Shown: in pieces, positions 1-8,314 of the stretch
Position numbering within the stretch: position 1 is the stretch's first letter
How the letters are laid out: every line of letters begins with the position of its first letter
DNA from: Candidatus Rokuibacteriota bacterium
Lineage (GTDB): Bacteria > Methylomirabilota > Methylomirabilia > Rokubacteriales > JACPHL01
Reading direction: 5' to 3'
DNA length: 11,700 bases
Assembly: GCA_016188625.1 (NCBI GenBank)
Contig: JACPHL010000066.1
Location: 1-11,700 of the forward strand
Notes under the pieces: generated by a model
The model's input: only the letters and a program-made list of their open reading frames with translations
What the model was told of the DNA's origin: nothing
The model's database searches: none
Translations under genes and position numbers: made by a program

Positions 1-2
1 CC

Positions 3-524
3 CCGGACGGCAAGAAGGCCTACGTCTCCAACGGCGGCTCCGGCGACGTCTCGGTGATCCACACGGCCACCTACGAGGTGGTGAAGACCCTCTTCGCGGG
101 GAAGGACGCCATGGGGATGACGCTCGCGCCGGGTGGCAGGGAGGTCTGGGTGACCGAGGGCGGGGACAGCATCGTCTCGATCATCGACACGGGCGAGGAC
201 AAGGTGGTCGGCGAGATCCGGATCGGCAATGACACCCACGGGGTTGTCCTGACCCCGGACGGCAAGCGCGCCTACGTCAGCGTTCGGAAGGAGCACCTGG
301 TGGCGGTGGTGGACGTCTCGAGCCGCAGCGTGGTGGCGAAGATCCCCGTCTCGGAGCTCCCGGACATCCTGGACCTGAGCCCGGACGGCAAGGAGCTCTG
401 GGTCACCAGCCGGAAGGCCAACGCCGTGGACGTGATCGACACGGCCACCAACCAGAAGATCCTGACGATCCCGGTGGGGATGACGGCTACGCCGGACCCC
501 CACGGGCTCGTCATCACCAAGTAG
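3..524 (+). CDS. YVTN-type beta-propeller repeat protein, 3' end only
   Basis: The gene is cut by the window edge; its frame is open from base 3, so no start is visible. The 173 visible residues contain four copies of a P-[DG]-G-[KR]-x-[AVL]-[YW]-V motif, beginning at visible residues 1, 43, 85 and 127. This is an exact 42-residue period, typical of the YVTN/YncE-like seven-bladed beta-propellers, which are often periplasmic or surface proteins and are related to the cytochrome d1 propeller. The last blade ends in PDPHGLVITK. No catalytic residue identifies a substrate, and any signal peptide would lie upstream of the window. A palindrome follows the stop. The 44-base gap to the dsrE-like genes and the shared strand allow co-transcription, but a functional link to sulfur metabolism is only a guess. 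Confidence 0.85.
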   Translation, partial: PDGKKAYVSNGGSGDVSVIHTATYEVVKTLFAGKDAMGMTLAPGGREVWVTEGGDSIVSIIDTGEDKVVGEIRIGNDTHGVVLTPDGKRAYVSVRKEHLVAVVDVSSRSVVAKIPVSELPDILDLSPDGKELWVTSRKANAVDVIDTATNQKILTIPVGMTATPDPHGLVITK

Positions 525-525
525 G

Positions 526-543
526 CCCGCGCCGCGGCGCGGG
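526..543 (+). terminator. perfect GC palindrome after the beta-propeller gene
   Basis: The 18-base sequence is its own reverse complement (half-site CCCGCGCCG) and starts two bases after the stop at 522-524. It could form a strong hairpin. No T-run follows, so it may be only a weak terminator or an mRNA 3'-end stabiliser ahead of the sulfur gene array. Confidence 0.35.
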
Positions 544-568
544 GATCCGGTCAGAAAGGAGGGAGGCG

Positions 569-898
569 ATGCCCAGGTATCTCCTGATCGAGAGCAAGGA
601 CCCCCTCGATGGGGGGCAGTACTCCTTCGATCTCGGCACGCAGCTCCGTGAGATCAAGCACGACGTGACCGTCTACCTCGTCCAGGACGCGGTCTTCGCC
701 GCCCGGAAGGGGTTCGCGGCCGGCGAGAGGCTCCTGGCCGAGGCCAGGAAGCACGGCCTGACCCTGCTGGCGGACGAGATCTCGCTCCGGCAGCGGGGGG
801 TCGTCAAGGACCGGCTGTCGGCCGAGGTCAAGGTCAGCAACATGGGCGAGTTGGTCGATCTGCTCATGGAGCGGAGCGACAAGGCCATCTGGCACTGA
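569..898 (+). CDS. DsrE-family protein without cysteine (array member 1)
   Basis: A 109-residue protein of the DsrE/DsrF/DsrH fold. It opens with a hydrophobic strand (YLLIES) and has the ordered elements DPLDGGQYSF, VTVYLVQDAVFAARKG and LLADEISLRQRGV, ending in a VDLLMERSDKAIWH tail. The segment ending in RGV aligns with the active-site loop of TusD/DsrE, but the catalytic cysteine position is not a cysteine, and the protein has no cysteine at all. It therefore cannot carry a persulfide itself and is more likely a structural or partner subunit, as in DsrEFH- or TusBCD-type complexes. The start is supported by a strong ribosome binding site (AAAGGAGGGAGG, just upstream of ATG 569). It is the first gene of a tight array; the next starts 11 bases later. 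Cytoplasmic by family. The exact partner is unknown. Confidence 0.88.
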   Translation: MPRYLLIESKDPLDGGQYSFDLGTQLREIKHDVTVYLVQDAVFAARKGFAAGERLLAEARKHGLTLLADEISLRQRGVVKDRLSAEVKVSNMGELVDLLMERSDKAIWH

Positions 899-909
899 GG
901 GAGGGGATC

Positions 910-1341
910 ATGGCGGATCGCAAGACGCTCCACATCACCTTCACGGCCGGGCCGTACGGGAACGAGACCCCCATCAGCATCTTCCGGCTGGTGGACGCGG
1001 CCCTGGACAAGGGGTACCACGTCAACGTGCTGGGGTACGAGGACGGGGTGCTCCTCTCGTCCAAGGCCCAGGTCCAGCACGACGACCCCATCTGGAAGAC
1101 CATGCCCGAGCACCACACCGACGCCGGGAAGGCCCACAACACCACCGCCGAGTTCGTGGCGCGGCTCCTGGACAAGGGCAAGGGGGAGCCCAAGCTCAAC
1201 TGGTACGTCTGAGGGCTCTGCTGCCTGGAACGGGGCGTTCCACAGGGCTATCATCTGGATCCGGTCGTGCACGGCACCCTCGCCGACATCTACAAGTTCA
1301 CCGACCAGGCCGACAAGACCCTCATGGTCTCGGGCCACTGA
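910..1341 (+). CDS. DsrE-family selenoprotein (in-frame UGA read as selenocysteine)
   Basis: The frame opened by ATG 910 (ribosome site GAGGGAGGGG) reaches TGA at 1210-1212 after 100 residues, then stays open for 42 more codons to TGA 1339-1341. Read through, it gives 143 residues, a normal DsrE length; stopping at 100 would lose the last strand and helix of the fold. The context is WYV-U101-GLCCLERGV. In E. coli TusD the active-site Cys is followed by VAAALRRGV, so U101 lies at the same distance from the conserved RGV and replaces the persulfide-carrying cysteine. C104 and C105 could form a selenenylsulfide with U101. The read-through part ends in LADIYKFTDQADKTLMVSGH, the usual DsrE tail. 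A SECIS-like hairpin follows the UGA. The next gene begins 15 bases after the second TGA, so the read-through codons fill what would otherwise be a 144-base gap in a compact array. Alternative: a true stop with decayed 3' codons, which is unlikely given the intact wobble pattern. Confidence 0.85.
1213..1248 (+). promoter_or_regulatory. candidate bacterial SECIS element
   Basis: Thirteen bases after the UGA a perfect 6-bp stem forms between 1226-1231 (TGGAAC) and 1237-1242 (GTTCCA), closed by the 5-base loop GGGGC (1232-1236). The lower stem can extend through 1221-1223 with 1243-1245 (two bulged C), or through 1223-1225 with 1246-1248. Known bacterial SECIS elements, such as that of E. coli fdhF, sit about 11 bases after the UGA with a short apical loop that has G in its first two positions, for SelB binding. 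The geometry matches. Codons across this region include GAA, GTT and CCA, which are otherwise rare in this gene, as expected when RNA structure constrains the sequence. Confidence 0.75.
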
Positions 1342-1356
1342 GCCGGAGGAGGCGCC

Positions 1357-1740
1357 ATGCCGAAGAAGATCCTGTCGGTCCTCTCGCACACCGAGTACGG
1401 GAACCTCGAGGACTCGGACATCGGCCTCTTCGCCTCGGCCTTCGCCCCGGTGGCGGGGCAGCAGATGACCCTCCTGCTCGCCGAGGAGGCGGTCAACTAC
1501 GCCGTCCGGGGGCAGGACGGGACCGGGATCAAGATCGCCGGGGCCATGGTCCAGCCCGGCTTCCTGATCGAGACCGACCTCGTCTCGGTCGGCCAGGCCA
1601 ACATCCCCGTCCACGTCATCCAGGAGGACCTGGCGGAGCGGGGGATCAAGCAGGAGGACCTGGTGTCGGGGGTCAAGCTGCTCAGCCGGAAGGAGCTGGG
1701 GCGCTTCGTCGACCAGTTCGACACGGTCTGGAACTGGTGA
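1357..1740 (+). CDS. DsrE-family protein without cysteine (array member 3)
   Basis: A 127-residue protein preceded by a textbook ribosome binding site (GGAGGAGG, a few bases before ATG 1357). The fold elements follow DsrE order: KKILSVLSHTEYG strand and loop, QQMTLLLAEEAVNYAVRG, the variable middle, then IPVHVIQEDLAERGI, where the ERGI matches the RG[IV] that ends the active loop of DsrE/TusD. It ends in GRFVDQFDTVWNW. Like the first array member it has no cysteine, so it cannot hold sulfur covalently and may complete a hetero-oligomer with the selenoprotein. The stop TGA (1738-1740) overlaps the GTG start of the tusA-like gene by four bases, implying translational coupling. DsrE/DsrF/DsrH assignment is by fold pattern; the subfamily is uncertain. 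Confidence 0.85.
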   Translation: MPKKILSVLSHTEYGNLEDSDIGLFASAFAPVAGQQMTLLLAEEAVNYAVRGQDGTGIKIAGAMVQPGFLIETDLVSVGQANIPVHVIQEDLAERGIKQEDLVSGVKLLSRKELGRFVDQFDTVWNW

Positions 1741-2015
1741 GTGGCGCGCCCCTGCCGGTCGAGGCGGCCGCCCCGGCGGCCGTGGTGGACAATCGGGGGA
1801 TGCTCTGCGCCCAGGGCATCCTCCGGTTGATGCGGACCATGGTCGCGGTCCCGCCCGAGGGGGTGGTGAAGGTCCTCTCCACGGATCCCGCGGCCGAGCA
1901 CGACTACCCCGCCTGGTGCCGGAGCACCGGCCACGCCTTCCTCGCACACGTCACCGAGCAGGACGCCGCCTGGGGGCGGCTGATTGTCTCCTATATCCGG
2001 AAGCGGCAGGGGTAG
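1737..2015 (+). CDS. TusA-like sulfur carrier with atypical CAQG motif
   Basis: A 92-residue protein starting at a GTG that overlaps the upstream stop (GTGA). It shows the TusA/SirA layout: DNRGMLCAQGILRLMRTM, then EGVVKVLSTDPAAEHDYPAWCRSTGHAFL. TusA proteins carry sulfur on the cysteine of a CPxP motif at the start of the first helix. Here C24 is kept but both prolines are replaced (CAQG). A second cysteine, C61, lies in the AWCRSTGH segment that many TusA proteins also have. By family it would receive a persulfide and pass it to DsrE-type partners, and its place at the end of a DsrE array fits that. The first 17 residues are Ala/Pro-rich and may be a tail rather than part of the fold. It could be a TusA variant with altered partner specificity. 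Confidence 0.82.
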   Translation: MSGAPLPVEAAAPAAVVDNRGMLCAQGILRLMRTMVAVPPEGVVKVLSTDPAAEHDYPAWCRSTGHAFLAHVTEQDAAWGRLIVSYIRKRQG

Positions 2016-2023
2016 GTGCCTCA

Positions 2024-2084
2024 GAGGGGGGCTCCGCCCCCCCTTCCGAACCTCCCCCCGGGGTTGCGGCGGCAAAGCCGCCGC
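2024..2084 (+). terminator. double hairpin after the TusA-like gene
   Basis: A first hairpin pairs 2026-2032 (GGGGGGC) with 2036-2042 (GCCCCCC) around a 3-base loop. A second, perfect 8-bp hairpin pairs 2066-2073 (GCGGCGGC) with 2077-2084 (GCCGCCGC) around AAA. Their position 9 bases past the tusA-like stop suggests transcription termination or pausing before the next dsrE-like gene. The first is followed only by C and TT, so it is not a strong intrinsic terminator. The 10-base string CGGACCACCC at about 2091-2100 recurs in repeat copy A (about 2637-2646), hinting at shared origin. The rest of the gap up to 2194 shows no gene. Confidence 0.45.
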
Positions 2085-2194
2085 GCGGAGCGGACCACCC
2101 AATCCGTGAGCCGACAATCCAGAGCGCGCGAGCGCATAGCATTACTCGGACGGACTCCTAGCCGCGCGCGGGGAGCCCCCGTGGGCGGCGACCC

Positions 2195-2608
2195 ATGAAG
2201 AAGCTGGCGCTCATCGTCTCCCGCGGGAGCCACAACAGCCTGGTGCAGGTCCTCACCCTCGTGATGGCGGCCGTCGGCTCCGAGATCGCCGTCCGGGTCT
2301 TCTTCCGCGACGAGGCGGTCCTCAAGCTCACCAGGGCGCGGGCGGGGGAGCTGAACCTCTCCGAGGGCTACCGGGGGCGGGAGGCCGAGACCGCCGAGCG
2401 GCTGGCCGCCCAGGGGCTGCTCGACCTCCGCCGGGTGATGCGCGAGGTGAAGGAGGCGGGCGACGTCCGCCTCTACGCCTGCAGCTCCTCCATGGCGATC
2501 TGCGGGGTCACGGCCGAGGATCTCCTCGAGGAGATCGACGAGGTCCGGGGGCTCGCCGCCTTCCTCCTCGAGGACGTGGCCGGGGCCGACCGCGTCCTCA
2601 CCTTCTAA
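2195..2608 (+). CDS. DsrE/DsrF-like (DsrE2-type) protein with active-site cysteine
   Basis: A 137-residue protein that begins with a long strand and helix (KKLALIVSRGSHNSLVQVLTL) and contains VRLYACSSSMAICGV at residues 92-105. C96 lies nine residues before the valine of the GV motif, the same spacing as the catalytic cysteine of TusD/DsrE; C103 is a second thiol close by. The tail (EDLLEEIDEVRGLAAFLLEDVAGADRVLTF) is the helix-strand pattern that ends DsrE/DsrE2 proteins. It probably acts as a cytoplasmic or membrane-associated sulfane-sulfur acceptor in the same pathway as the array upstream. It is separated from that array by a 179-base hairpin-rich gap. The Shine-Dalgarno (GGGCGG) is weak. 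The stop is followed at once by a large palindrome and the convergent yeeE gene. Confidence 0.85.
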   Translation: MKKLALIVSRGSHNSLVQVLTLVMAAVGSEIAVRVFFRDEAVLKLTRARAGELNLSEGYRGREAETAERLAAQGLLDLRRVMREVKEAGDVRLYACSSSMAICGVTAEDLLEEIDEVRGLAAFLLEDVAGADRVLTF

Positions 2609-2612
2609 AACG

Positions 2613-2638
2613 CGGAGGGGGGCCGCGGCCCCCCTCCG
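2613..2638 (-). terminator. 26-bp perfect palindrome between convergent dsrE-like gene and yeeE
   Basis: The sequence equals its own reverse complement (half-site CGGAGGGGGGCCG), so it can form a hairpin with an 11-bp or longer stem in either transcript. On the - strand it is followed by GCGTTTTAG, a short T-run, so it could terminate yeeE transcription. On the + strand it sits 4 bases after the dsrE-like stop but without a T-run. It is also the distal end of repeat copy A; in copy B the corresponding hairpin is imperfect. Confidence 0.55.
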
Positions 2639-2722
2639 GACCACCCCGCGGGAGGCGTCAGCCCCTCGCTCCACACGCTCCGCGGCGCACCCGTCTGTGG
2701 CTCGCCGGGCGGGGCCCCTCCT
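2613..2722 (-). repeat. dispersed ~110-bp repeat, copy A
   Basis: Read on the - strand, this 110-base stretch matches 8206-8314 on the + strand with about 87% identity by hand alignment. The first 26 bases are identical, starting AGGAGGGGCCCCGCCCGGCG, and a central block GAGCGTGTGGAGCGAGGGGC is also identical. One single-base gap is needed near the end. It begins where the yeeE protein should finish and ends in the 26-bp palindrome. It has no coding capacity of its own and no evident terminal inverted repeats or target duplication, so it resembles a REP-like or MITE-like palindromic element rather than an insertion sequence. Confidence 0.8.
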
Positions 2723-3697
2723 CGCCCAGACCGCCACCCAGGCCCCCAGGATCATCGCCGCGAAGGCGGTGAGGCTTCCCGCCGCCAGGGTCGCCGCGTT
2801 CGTGAGGCCCTGGGTGATGTTGCACCCCTCGGCGATGATGGCCCCCGTCCCCATCACCACCCCGCCCGCGAAGAGCTGGACCGCCGTGAACCCCGGGGGG
2901 ACCTTCCAGCCGAACTCCCCCCGCCGCCAGGCGGCCAGGAAGGCCCCCACCGGGACGCCGAAGAGGAGGAGCATGCTCCAGGTCACCCGGGTGGGGTAGC
3001 CGACCAGGGGGTAGGTGAAGAGGTGGCTCGTGTTGATGGCGAAGGTGATGCCGGTGGGGGCCTCCCCGAACGTCGAGGCGTACCAGCCGAGGGCGATGGT
3101 CGTCCCCACGACCATCCCCGTCAGGGGCCACGGCCACTTGCCGCTCTCCGGCTCCCCCCGGCCCCGCGCGAGCCAGACGAGCGCCGCCCCCCCGAGGACC
3201 AGGAGGACGGTCCAGGGCGGGAGCCCCACCAGGGTCGCGAGGGTCGGCGCCTCGCCGCCCACCAGCACCTCGGGCCCCTGGAGGGCCCGCCGGAGGGGGG
3301 CGAGGCGCCCGACGCTGGTAGCGGTGGCGCCCATGGCGAAGCCCAGAACGACGATCCAGGCCCCGATCGCCCCCTCTCCGAGGCGGTACCAGGAGCTCCC
3401 CGAGCACCCCCCCGAGAGGATCATCCCGATCCCGAAGATGAAGCCGCCCACCAGGTTGGCGAGCCAGTGGAAGGGTCGGACGGGGATCTCCACCCAGCCG
3501 GCGGCGACCATGATCTGCACCCCCGCGGCCGCCACGACGAGGGCCAGGACGTAGGCGCGGAAGACCGTCGCGTCCCCCATGAGGAAGAGGTTCGACGTGG
3601 CACGCGTCAGGCAGAATCCGCCGCGCTGGGTGACGTACCCGAAGGCGAGCCCCGTCCCCAGGGCGGTGGCGATCATGAGCCACTGGACCGGTTCCAT
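2717..3697 (-). CDS. YeeE/YedE-family (TsuA-like) thiosulfate or sulfur-compound transporter; 3' end without stop
   Basis: A polytopic membrane protein of about 327 recognisable residues with roughly nine hydrophobic segments. It carries the three cysteine motifs of the YeeE/YedE (DUF395) family: RGGFC (C29), SGGCSGSSWYR (C98) and EGCNITQGLTN (C292). In the thiosulfate transporter YeeE/TsuA these cysteines line the conduction path in the inner membrane. The repeated halves (GGFIFGIGMILSGGC and GGVVMGTGAIIAEGC) are the internal duplication of the family. The ATG at 3697 gives a normal N-terminus. At the expected C-terminus (WVAVWARR) there is no stop: the frame enters repeat copy A and stays open to TGA at 2021-2023, antisense to the whole dsrE-like gene. 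I annotate only the homologous part. The neighbouring DsrE and TusA genes support sulfur-compound uptake. The exact substrate is not shown. Confidence 0.85.
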
Positions 3698-5929: not shown

Positions 5930-8033
5930 ATGCGTATCCGTCGCGCCCTCGTCGTCGTCGAATCGCCCGCCAAGGTGAAGACCATCCAGAAGTACCTGGA
6001 CAAGGGCTTCGTCGTGAAGGCCTCCCTCGGCCACGTCAAGGACCTCCCCTCCAACCGGCTCGGGGTGGACGTGGAGCGGGACTTCGCCCCGCAGTACGTG
6101 GCGCTCCGCGCCAAGTCGAAGGTCCTCCAGGAGCTCAAGCGCGCCGCGGCGGGGGCCGAGGCCCTCTACGTGGCCACCGACCCCGACCGCGAAGGGGAGG
6201 CCATCGGCTGGCACGTGGCCCAGGAGCTGGCCCTCCCGGCGGACAAGGTCTACCGTGTGCTCTTCAACGAGATCACCGAGAAGGCGATCAAGGCCGCCTT
6301 CAAGCACCCGGGCCGGATCGATCTCCGGAAGGTGGACGCCCAGCAGGCCCGGCGGGTCCTGGACCGCCTCGTCGGCTACAAGCTCTCCCCCCTCCTCTGG
6401 GCCAAGGTCCAGCGGGGCCTCTCGGCCGGGCGGGTCCAGTCGGTCGCCGTCCGCCTCGTCTGCGAGCGCGAGCGCGGGATCTCCGAGTTCGTCCCCCAGG
6501 AGTACTGGACCCTCGACGCCCGTCTGGCGGCCGGCGAGGCGCCACCGTTCGCCGCCGCGCTACGCGCGAAGGACGGGGAGAAGGTCGCCCTCGCCCGCGA
6601 GGCCGACGTCCAGGCGGTCATCCGAGAGCTCGACGGGCTGGCCTTCACGGTCTCGGCGGTCACCACCGGGGAGCGGAAGCGGAACCCCGCCCCGCCCTTC
6701 ATCACCTCGACCCTCCAGCAGGAGGCGGCCCGGAAGCTCCGCTTCTCCGCCCAGAAGACCATGCTGGTCGCCCAGCAGCTCTACGAGGGGGTCGAGCTGG
6801 ACGCCGAGGGGCCGGTCGGGCTCATCACCTACATGCGGACCGACTCGCCCCGGGTCGCCGCGGAGGCCCAGGCCGAGGCGCGGGAGTACATCGCCGGGCG
6901 CTTCGGGGCCGAGCACCTCCCCGAGCGGTCCCCGACCTACCGCGCCCGGCGGTCGGCCCAGGAGGCCCATGAGGCGATCCGCCCGACCAGCGCCCTCAGG
7001 CTCCCCCAGGCCCTGGCGGGATCGCTCACCCGGGACCAGCTGGCCCTCTACCGGCTTATCTGGGAGCGCTTCCTGGCCAGCCAGATGCGCCCGGCGGTCC
7101 GGGCTGCCCCCGCTCGCGATCGGGCAGCGCCTGGCCCTCCTGGGGCTCGAGCCCAAGCAGCACTTCACCCAGCCCCCGCCCCGGTACACGGAGGCCTCGC
7201 TGGTCAAGGAGCTCGAGGAGCAGGGGATCGGCCGCCCCTCGACCTACGCCACCATCCTCTCCACCATCCAGCAGCGGGGCTACGTCAATCGGGAGCGGGG
7301 CGGGGTCCTCGTCCCCAGCGAGCTGGGCCAGGTGGTCACCGGCCTCCTGGTGGCCAACTTCCCCGACGTGCTGGAGGTGGCCTTCACGGCGCAGATGGAG
7401 GAGTCCCTCGACCAGGTCGAGGAGGGCGGTCGGCCGTGGGTGGAGACGATCCGGACCTTCTACGAGCCCTTCGCCAAGGACCTCAAGCGCGCGCAGCGCG
7501 AGATGACGGACCTCAAGGAGGGGCGCCCCACCGACGAGATCTGCCCCCGCTGCGGGGCCCCGCTCCTCGAGCGCTGGGGGCGGTACGGGCGCTTCCTGGC
7601 CTGCTCGACCTTCCCCAAGTGCACCTTCACCCAGGACGTCGGCGACAACGGCCAGGCCGTCGAGCCCACGGGGGAGGTCTGCGACCGCTGCGGCAAGCCG
7701 ATGGTGGTCAAGGAGGGGCGGTACGGGCGCTTCCTGGCCTGCCAGGGCTATCCGCGGTGCCGGAACACCAAACCGATCCCCGTGGGGGTCGCCTGCCCCG
7801 AGCAGGGGTGCGACGGGGCCCTCACGGAGCGCCGCTCCCGGCGCGGGAAGGTCTACTACGCCTGCTCCAACTACCCGCGCTGCACCTTCATCCTCTGGCA
7901 GCGGCCGTTCCCCGAGCCCTGCCCCAAGTGCGGGGCGCCGTTCCTCGTGGAGCGCTCGAGCCGGGGGCGCCGGACCCTCGCCTGCAGCCTGCGGGGGTGC
8001 GACTATCGCCGCGACGCCGACGAGTCGGTCTGA
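5930..8033 (+). CDS. topA: DNA topoisomerase I, interrupted by an internal deletion and frame change
   Basis: Type IA topoisomerase, which relaxes negative supercoils. ATG 5930 follows the dprA stop by four bases with TAGGAAG as ribosome site. The first frame encodes residues 1-390: TOPRIM domain with catalytic E11 (VVESPAK) and DPDREGE at 84-90, SAGRVQSVAVRLVCERE (165-181), and the active tyrosine Y301 in TYMRTDSPR. After QMRPAV (about 7099) the frame loses similarity, and the protein resumes in a different frame at LPPLAIGQRLALLGLEPKQHF (from about 7101), through the conserved EEQGIGRPSTYATI, to four C-terminal zinc-ribbon modules (CPRCG, CDRCG, CPEQGC, CPKCG). The two parts total about 700 residues. 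The segment that normally joins them, about 55-65 residues, is missing, so this is a deletion not divisible by three, not a simple indel. A true lesion or an assembly error are both possible; topA is normally essential. Confidence 0.88.
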
Positions 8034-8205: not shown

Positions 8206-8314
8206 AGGAGGGGCCCCGCCCGGCGAGCCACTGGCGGGTGCGCCGTGGAGCGTGTGGAGCGAGGGGCCGGTGCCTCCCGCGAGGCCGTCCGAAGAGGGCC
8301 GGGGTCTCCCTCCG
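8206..8314 (+). repeat. dispersed ~110-bp repeat, copy B
   Basis: About 87% identical to copy A (2613-2722, opposite strand); the two lie about 5.5 kb apart as inverted copies. Differences are mostly transitions and cluster in the second half, where copy B's terminal hairpin has decayed (GAAGAGGGCCGGGGTCTCCC). It ends about 23 bases before the xerC start. Confidence 0.8.

Follow-up and report, generated by a model that had tools for sequence, protein, structure and literature searches.

Selenoproteins with a DsrE-like domain (PF02635), in which a predicted selenocysteine (Sec) occupies a UxxC motif, have been described in the accessible parts of published surveys, with two cases from the Sargasso Sea, the GOS entries 'DsrE 1' and 'DsrE 2', and a case in Desulfovibrio vulgaris (PMC1088965, PMC2398784, PMC1794560). 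The Sargasso Sea and GOS cases in this literature agree with the statement of an earlier sequence-only reading of the present DNA that DsrE-like selenoproteins had been predicted from marine metagenomes. Among cysteine-containing relatives, DsrE3A of Metallosphaera cuprina is a two-cysteine carrier of the DsrE fold, and the exchange of a sulfur group between it and TusA provides a precedent for a two-thiol DsrE partner of a TusA-like protein (PMC4175335). The Rokubacteria are uncultured bacteria of soil and groundwater. For the Methylomirabilota, the accessible part of a review mentions a metagenome-assembled genome (MAG) for which 63 selenoprotein genes are predicted (PMC13188914), and a Rokubacterial Sec-DsrE may already be among those 63 genes. 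In the titles and abstracts of the open-access literature, no report of a Sec-DsrE protein from Rokubacteria or Methylomirabilota was found.

The window analyzed here, a stretch of 11,700 nucleotides, is the entire contig C201 of a Rokubacterial draft genome (G000; 2.6 Mb in 344 contigs, approximately 84% complete), and its relevant features are collected in Table 1. On computational evidence, the window encodes a DsrE-fold selenoprotein within a sulfur-relay-like operon. It is very probable that the protein has Sec at residue 101, inserted by means of a SECIS hairpin downstream of the UGA and the SelA, SelB, SelC and SelD of its own genome; its likely function would be that of the carrier in a TusBCD/DsrEFH-like sulfur relay. 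As DsrE-like UxxC selenoproteins have been predicted before, the Rokubacterial protein represents a further, well-supported case of a known type; what is new is the Rokubacterial clade, the sulfur-relay operon around the gene, and the occurrence of another candidate Sec-DsrE within the class.

Table 1. Position and strand of the predicted selenoprotein gene, its recoding elements and the neighboring genes in the window.
Feature	Position	Strand	Remarks
TusB/DsrH-like partner, 109 aa, no cysteine	569..898	+	Conserved beside the gene in most loci
Sec DsrE/YchN-fold gene, 143 aa, Sec101, UxxC motif U101-G-L-C104	910..1341	+	Predicted
In-frame UGA, predicted selenocysteine codon 101	1210..1212	+	TGA in 9 genomes; TGC/TGT in scored Cys homologs
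Predicted SECIS hairpin of bacterial type, arms 1226-1232 (5') and 1236-1242 (3'), loop GGG 1233-1235	1226..1242	+	Conservation, codon choice
TusC/DsrF-like partner, 127 aa, no cysteine	1357..1740	+	Conserved beside the gene in most loci
TusA-like protein, C-A-Q-G replacing the usual C-P-x-P	1737..2015	+	Pfam TusA; 5 other Sec loci
DsrE2-like protein, 137 aa	2195..2608	+	Pfam DsrE, DrsE_2; weak NCBIfam DsrE2; 5 other Sec loci
Convergent thiosulfate (sulfur) transporter of the TsuA/YeeE type, C-terminal end tentative	2700..3697	-	Sulf_transp 6.5e-65

The frame that opens at position 910 extends over 100 codons to the TGA at 1210-1212 and continues for a further 42 codons to a TGA stop at 1339-1341, so that translation agrees with the read-through product of 143 residues proposed by the sequence-only reading. 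The restoration of the DsrE C-terminus claimed in the same reading is borne out by the Pfam DsrE profile, of which the 100-residue form covers positions 5-54 of 116 (22.1 bits, just below the gathering cut-off of 22.7) and the read-through product positions 5-114 (35.7 bits). Nucleotide changes 3' of the TGA, summed over six relatives with L031 left out, are distributed over codon positions 1, 2 and 3 as 31, 15 and 75, which is a third-position bias of the coding type. An AlphaFold2 model, based on an alignment of the window and locus proteins and with Cys modelled at position 101, reached a pLDDT of 88.6 and a pTM of 0.83, with residues 102-143 mostly above pLDDT 90 and forming part of the fold. 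Ordinary annotation would truncate the protein directly before its active residue.

Eight other genomes contain this read-through gene (77-85% identity) with the TGA at the identical codon, and seven of them are Rokubacteria of the same order (G007, G009, G019, G030, G038, G058 and G059); the copies in G058 and G059 end at contig ends. The eighth relative, L029, derives from a MAG labelled Acidobacteria gp22, yet its Sec gene is nested within the Rokubacterial clade with moderate support, and transfer, mislabelling and misbinning of the MAG are the alternative explanations for this placement. The L029 locus has a TusB-like gene, and no TusC-like gene was detected there. More than 40 distant homologs, mostly at 28-42% identity, carry Cys (TGC/TGT) at position 101 wherever the motif was scored, in agreement with the earlier proposal that the UGA occupies a conserved active-site Cys position. 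They come from many phyla, including Chloroflexota, Acidobacteriota, Pseudomonadota, Cyanobacteriota and Myxococcota, and three of them are Rokubacterial. The alignment of homologs beyond residue 100, suggested as a check by the sequence-only reading, is observed, with either Cys or TGA at position 101. In trees of the Sec and Cys homologs, the Sec forms constitute a single group in 90% of bootstrap trees (support 89/81), in which no Cys homolog was observed.

The predicted SECIS element is the hairpin TGGAACG-GGG-CGTTCCA, which has 7 bp and a loop located 20 nt 3' of the TGA. It lies directly downstream of the UGA, and its small apical loop (GGG) begins with a G, as expected of a bacterial SECIS. 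The hairpin is identical in all eight Sec sequences compared and one or two pairs longer in other Sec genes (7-9 bp). With at least 7 bp and a G at loop position 1 or 2 as the criterion, a hairpin was found in 9/9 Sec genes versus 2/65 Cys genes (Fisher p=5e-10, a nominal value because the Sec genes are related and the counts not independent). The hairpin sequence forces the use of GAA, GTT and CCA codons, which are held fixed and are nearly absent otherwise in nine window genes (GAA in 3 of 154 Glu codons, GTT in 0 of 162 Val codons and CCA in 1 of 87 Pro codons). Among columns that are invariant in amino acid and have at least four codons, codon invariance is found in 5 of 7 within residues 102-113 versus 2 of 41 elsewhere (p=2.4e-4). 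Compared with shuffled sequences, the window hairpin is only modestly stable (z -0.95 and -1.67), so that the case for a SECIS is based on conservation and codon choice rather than on folding energy. An Rfam scan of window positions 1-3000 returned no SECIS family and nothing above the gathering score; below threshold, PhotoRC-I was matched with E 0.013 by a G+C-rich and for the most part intergenic segment at 2004-2065.

A search of the phylum yielded a further DsrE gene in G073, a member of another family of the same class (L128:1501-1833; G073:C92:15363-15695). It encodes a protein of approximately 113 residues with TGA at the corresponding place (V*GSCLVTRGV), and its hairpin GTGACCC-GTG-GGGTCAC also has 7 bp. 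Whereas the stem is almost invariant among the eight orthologs, that of L128 is unrelated in sequence, with nearly the same geometry and nearly the same distance from the TGA. A further frame 3' of this gene has a start that by eye resembles DsrF. Judged from these sequence features, the G073 gene is a candidate for an independent Sec-DsrE.

The genome to which the window belongs encodes the machinery needed for Sec insertion, and all four genes that the sequence-only reading had named for verification were located: selC (a tRNA-Sec with a UCA anticodon) is followed on one contig (C273) by selA and then selB, and selD, with an in-frame TGA of its own, is found on C179. Within the group, SelB scores above its family cut-off in 63 of 69 genomes. 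Among the genomes with the TGA gene, G007 (approximately 100% complete) and G038 (81%) yielded no selA, and neither selB nor tRNA-Sec scored above cut-off in them; selD has an in-frame TGA in both. As selA, selB and selC share one contig in G000, these cases could result from the absence of one contig in each MAG, and the selABC contig is probably missing from both MAGs.

In the AlphaFold2 model, residue 101 is situated at the end of a strand, directly followed by a helix, and the closest fold matches are YchN (1jx7, Z 17.4), DsrE (2hy5_A, Z 17.2) and TusD (2d1p_A, Z 16.2). Over 43 homologs, U101 (scored as C), G102, C104, E107 and R108 are invariant, which defines the UxxC motif. Of the two cysteines earlier put forward as selenenylsulfide partners, Cys104 remains the candidate for this role, being invariant in Sec and Cys homologs, while Cys105 is confined to the Sec clade; the resolving partner of Sec101 is therefore likely to be Cys104, as judged from the alignment. 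The earlier designation as a DsrE-family carrier can be refined: the protein has the DsrE/YchN fold but is not TusD or DsrE proper, as it scores only 17.9 bits against the TusD equivalog TIGR03012, far below its cut-off of 89.25. It belongs to an unnamed TusBCD-like trio, and at most it may work like TusD/DsrE by analogy.

Comparison with the described systems reveals the following similarities and differences. With TusD/DsrE of the TusBCD and DsrEFH complexes (2D1P, 2HY5), the protein shares the fold and a trio with TusB-like and TusC-like partners, and the spacing of U101 before the RGV motif corresponds to that of the TusD active-site residue; it differs from them in having Sec for Cys, an extra resolving cysteine of the CxxC type and the gene order B-E-C, besides its low equivalog score. 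E. coli YchN (1JX7) is the best fold match, and its C-x-x-C...RG aligns by sequence with U101-G-L-C104...RG, but it is a Cys protein of 117 rather than 143 residues and is not known as a member of a three-gene operon. DsrE3A of M. cuprina differs in its Cys-x7-Cys arrangement (here U-x2-C), the lack of Sec and the linkage to Hdr-like genes (PMC4175335). In common with the DsrE-like selenoproteins of the surveys, as far as their accessible parts describe them, the protein has a DsrE domain, a predicted Sec in UxxC and a SECIS hairpin 3' of the UGA; unlike those, which are listed as families with neither operon nor mechanism, the Rokubacterial clade is found in a TusBCD-like trio, a comparison made by description only.

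The TusB-like, DsrE and TusC-like genes are adjacent in this B-E-C order in the window, as they are in most of the loci of both Sec and Cys types, and neither partner has a conserved cysteine across loci, which leaves Sec101 as the sole conserved chalcogen of the trio and hence its likely carrier. The TusA-like protein scores 48.1 bits against Pfam TusA (gathering cut-off 28.6), with CAQG in place of CPxP, and this motif is kept in all four sister Sec loci scored. At L030, the trio follows a sulfite reductase, here a separate protein, and siroheme genes; at L026, it lies downstream of an ATP-sulfurylase (Sat)/sulfite-reductase fusion, siroheme synthase and CobA. The L026 fusion is a single 972-aa frame (L026:1278-4193) of ATP sulfurylase and siroheme sulfite/nitrite reductase, after which siroheme synthase and CobA are encoded. 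CysJ-CysI precede the Cys trio in Methylotenera, Methylophilus and Methylobacillus, and a metallo-beta-lactamase/rhodanese protein is encoded near the trio in several other genomes; the Sat/sulfite-reductase context applies to some loci only. The TsuA/YeeE-type transporter was considered as a part of the system and rejected, as none of the other loci retrieved had it nearby. The window also contains an inverted pair of G+C-rich segments (2618-2722 and 8206-8310; 105 nt, 85% match), possibly a dispersed repeat.

By analogy with the family and from the neighboring genes, we infer a sulfur-relay chemistry in which Sec101 is the sulfur acceptor. Together with its TusB-like and TusC-like neighbors, the selenoprotein would form a TusBCD/DsrEFH-like complex, in which it would be the subunit that carries the chalcogen. 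Sec101 would accept sulfane sulfur from a donor, probably the adjacent TusA-like protein, whereupon Cys104 would attack the Se-S bond to form a selenenylsulfide, with the sulfur passed on as a persulfide or released as sulfide. The relay would feed sulfur assimilation, a role suggested by the siroheme sulfite reductase and siroheme genes at two sister loci and by CysJ-CysI beside the methylotroph Cys homologs. On a wider view, to which about even chances are given, the protein would belong to a widespread, unnamed TusBCD-like relay encoded near sulfate/sulfite assimilation genes, in which Rokubacteria exchanged the sole conserved carrier thiol for a selenol that carries Se-bound sulfur, an exchange that would have occurred again in the shorter DsrE of the same class.

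Several other explanations of the in-frame TGA and of the function of the protein have to be weighed. That the gene is a pseudogene or a sequencing error, with a Cys codon mutated or misread as TGA and a remnant of 100 residues, draws some support from topA on the same contig, which is split over two frames near 7110-7120 (5930-8033; the N-terminal part in the 5930 frame, the C-terminal part in the 6255 frame) by a probable frameshift or an assembly error, so that base errors may exist. The TGA, which the sequence-only reading had proposed to verify by resequencing, nevertheless recurs in nine genomes, which excludes a sequencing error, and the intact downstream frame in the other genomes, the third-position-biased substitutions 3' of the TGA and the frozen hairpin make this explanation extremely improbable. 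Decoding of the UGA as another amino acid, through suppression or a reassigned code, would be compatible with the open frame by itself, but the Sec gene and the TusC-like gene both terminate at TGA, the genome has a full Sec apparatus including the tRNA-Sec with a UCA anticodon, homologs have Cys at this position and the UGA precedes a SECIS-like hairpin, all of which render it very improbable.

With regard to function, the main rival to a sulfur relay is a plain redox role, in which the protein would be a thiol/selenol oxidoreductase with a UxxC redox switch, for example a persulfide or disulfide reductase, and not a sulfur carrier. Such a role is consistent with the UxxC/CxxC pair that results from the invariance of Cys104 across both types of homolog, Sec and Cys, and the accessible parts of published surveys place DsrE-like UxxC selenoproteins among redox proteins (PMC1088965). 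The DsrE/TusD/YchN fold and the TusBCD-like trio, however, favor a sulfur relay, and the two roles overlap, as a carrier of persulfide that also has a resolving Cys would act as a reductase too; the redox role is possible, though rather unlikely. It is quite improbable that the complex handles selenium itself, delivering selenide or perselenide rather than sulfur. In other bacteria, selenium genes show a link to YedE and to YedF, which is a fusion of SirA and DsrE (PMC5322559), but the window transporter fits thiosulfate transporter models far better than YedE selenium models, sulfate/sulfite assimilation genes occur at sister loci, and the surroundings of the trio showed no sel gene.

For twenty years, selenoproteins of the DsrE-like type have appeared in published lists, and in the accessible parts of the literature their function is little known. 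A clade with a conserved operon, a clean division between Sec and Cys forms and a genome-wide Sec machinery makes the role of a selenol in sulfur relay testable.
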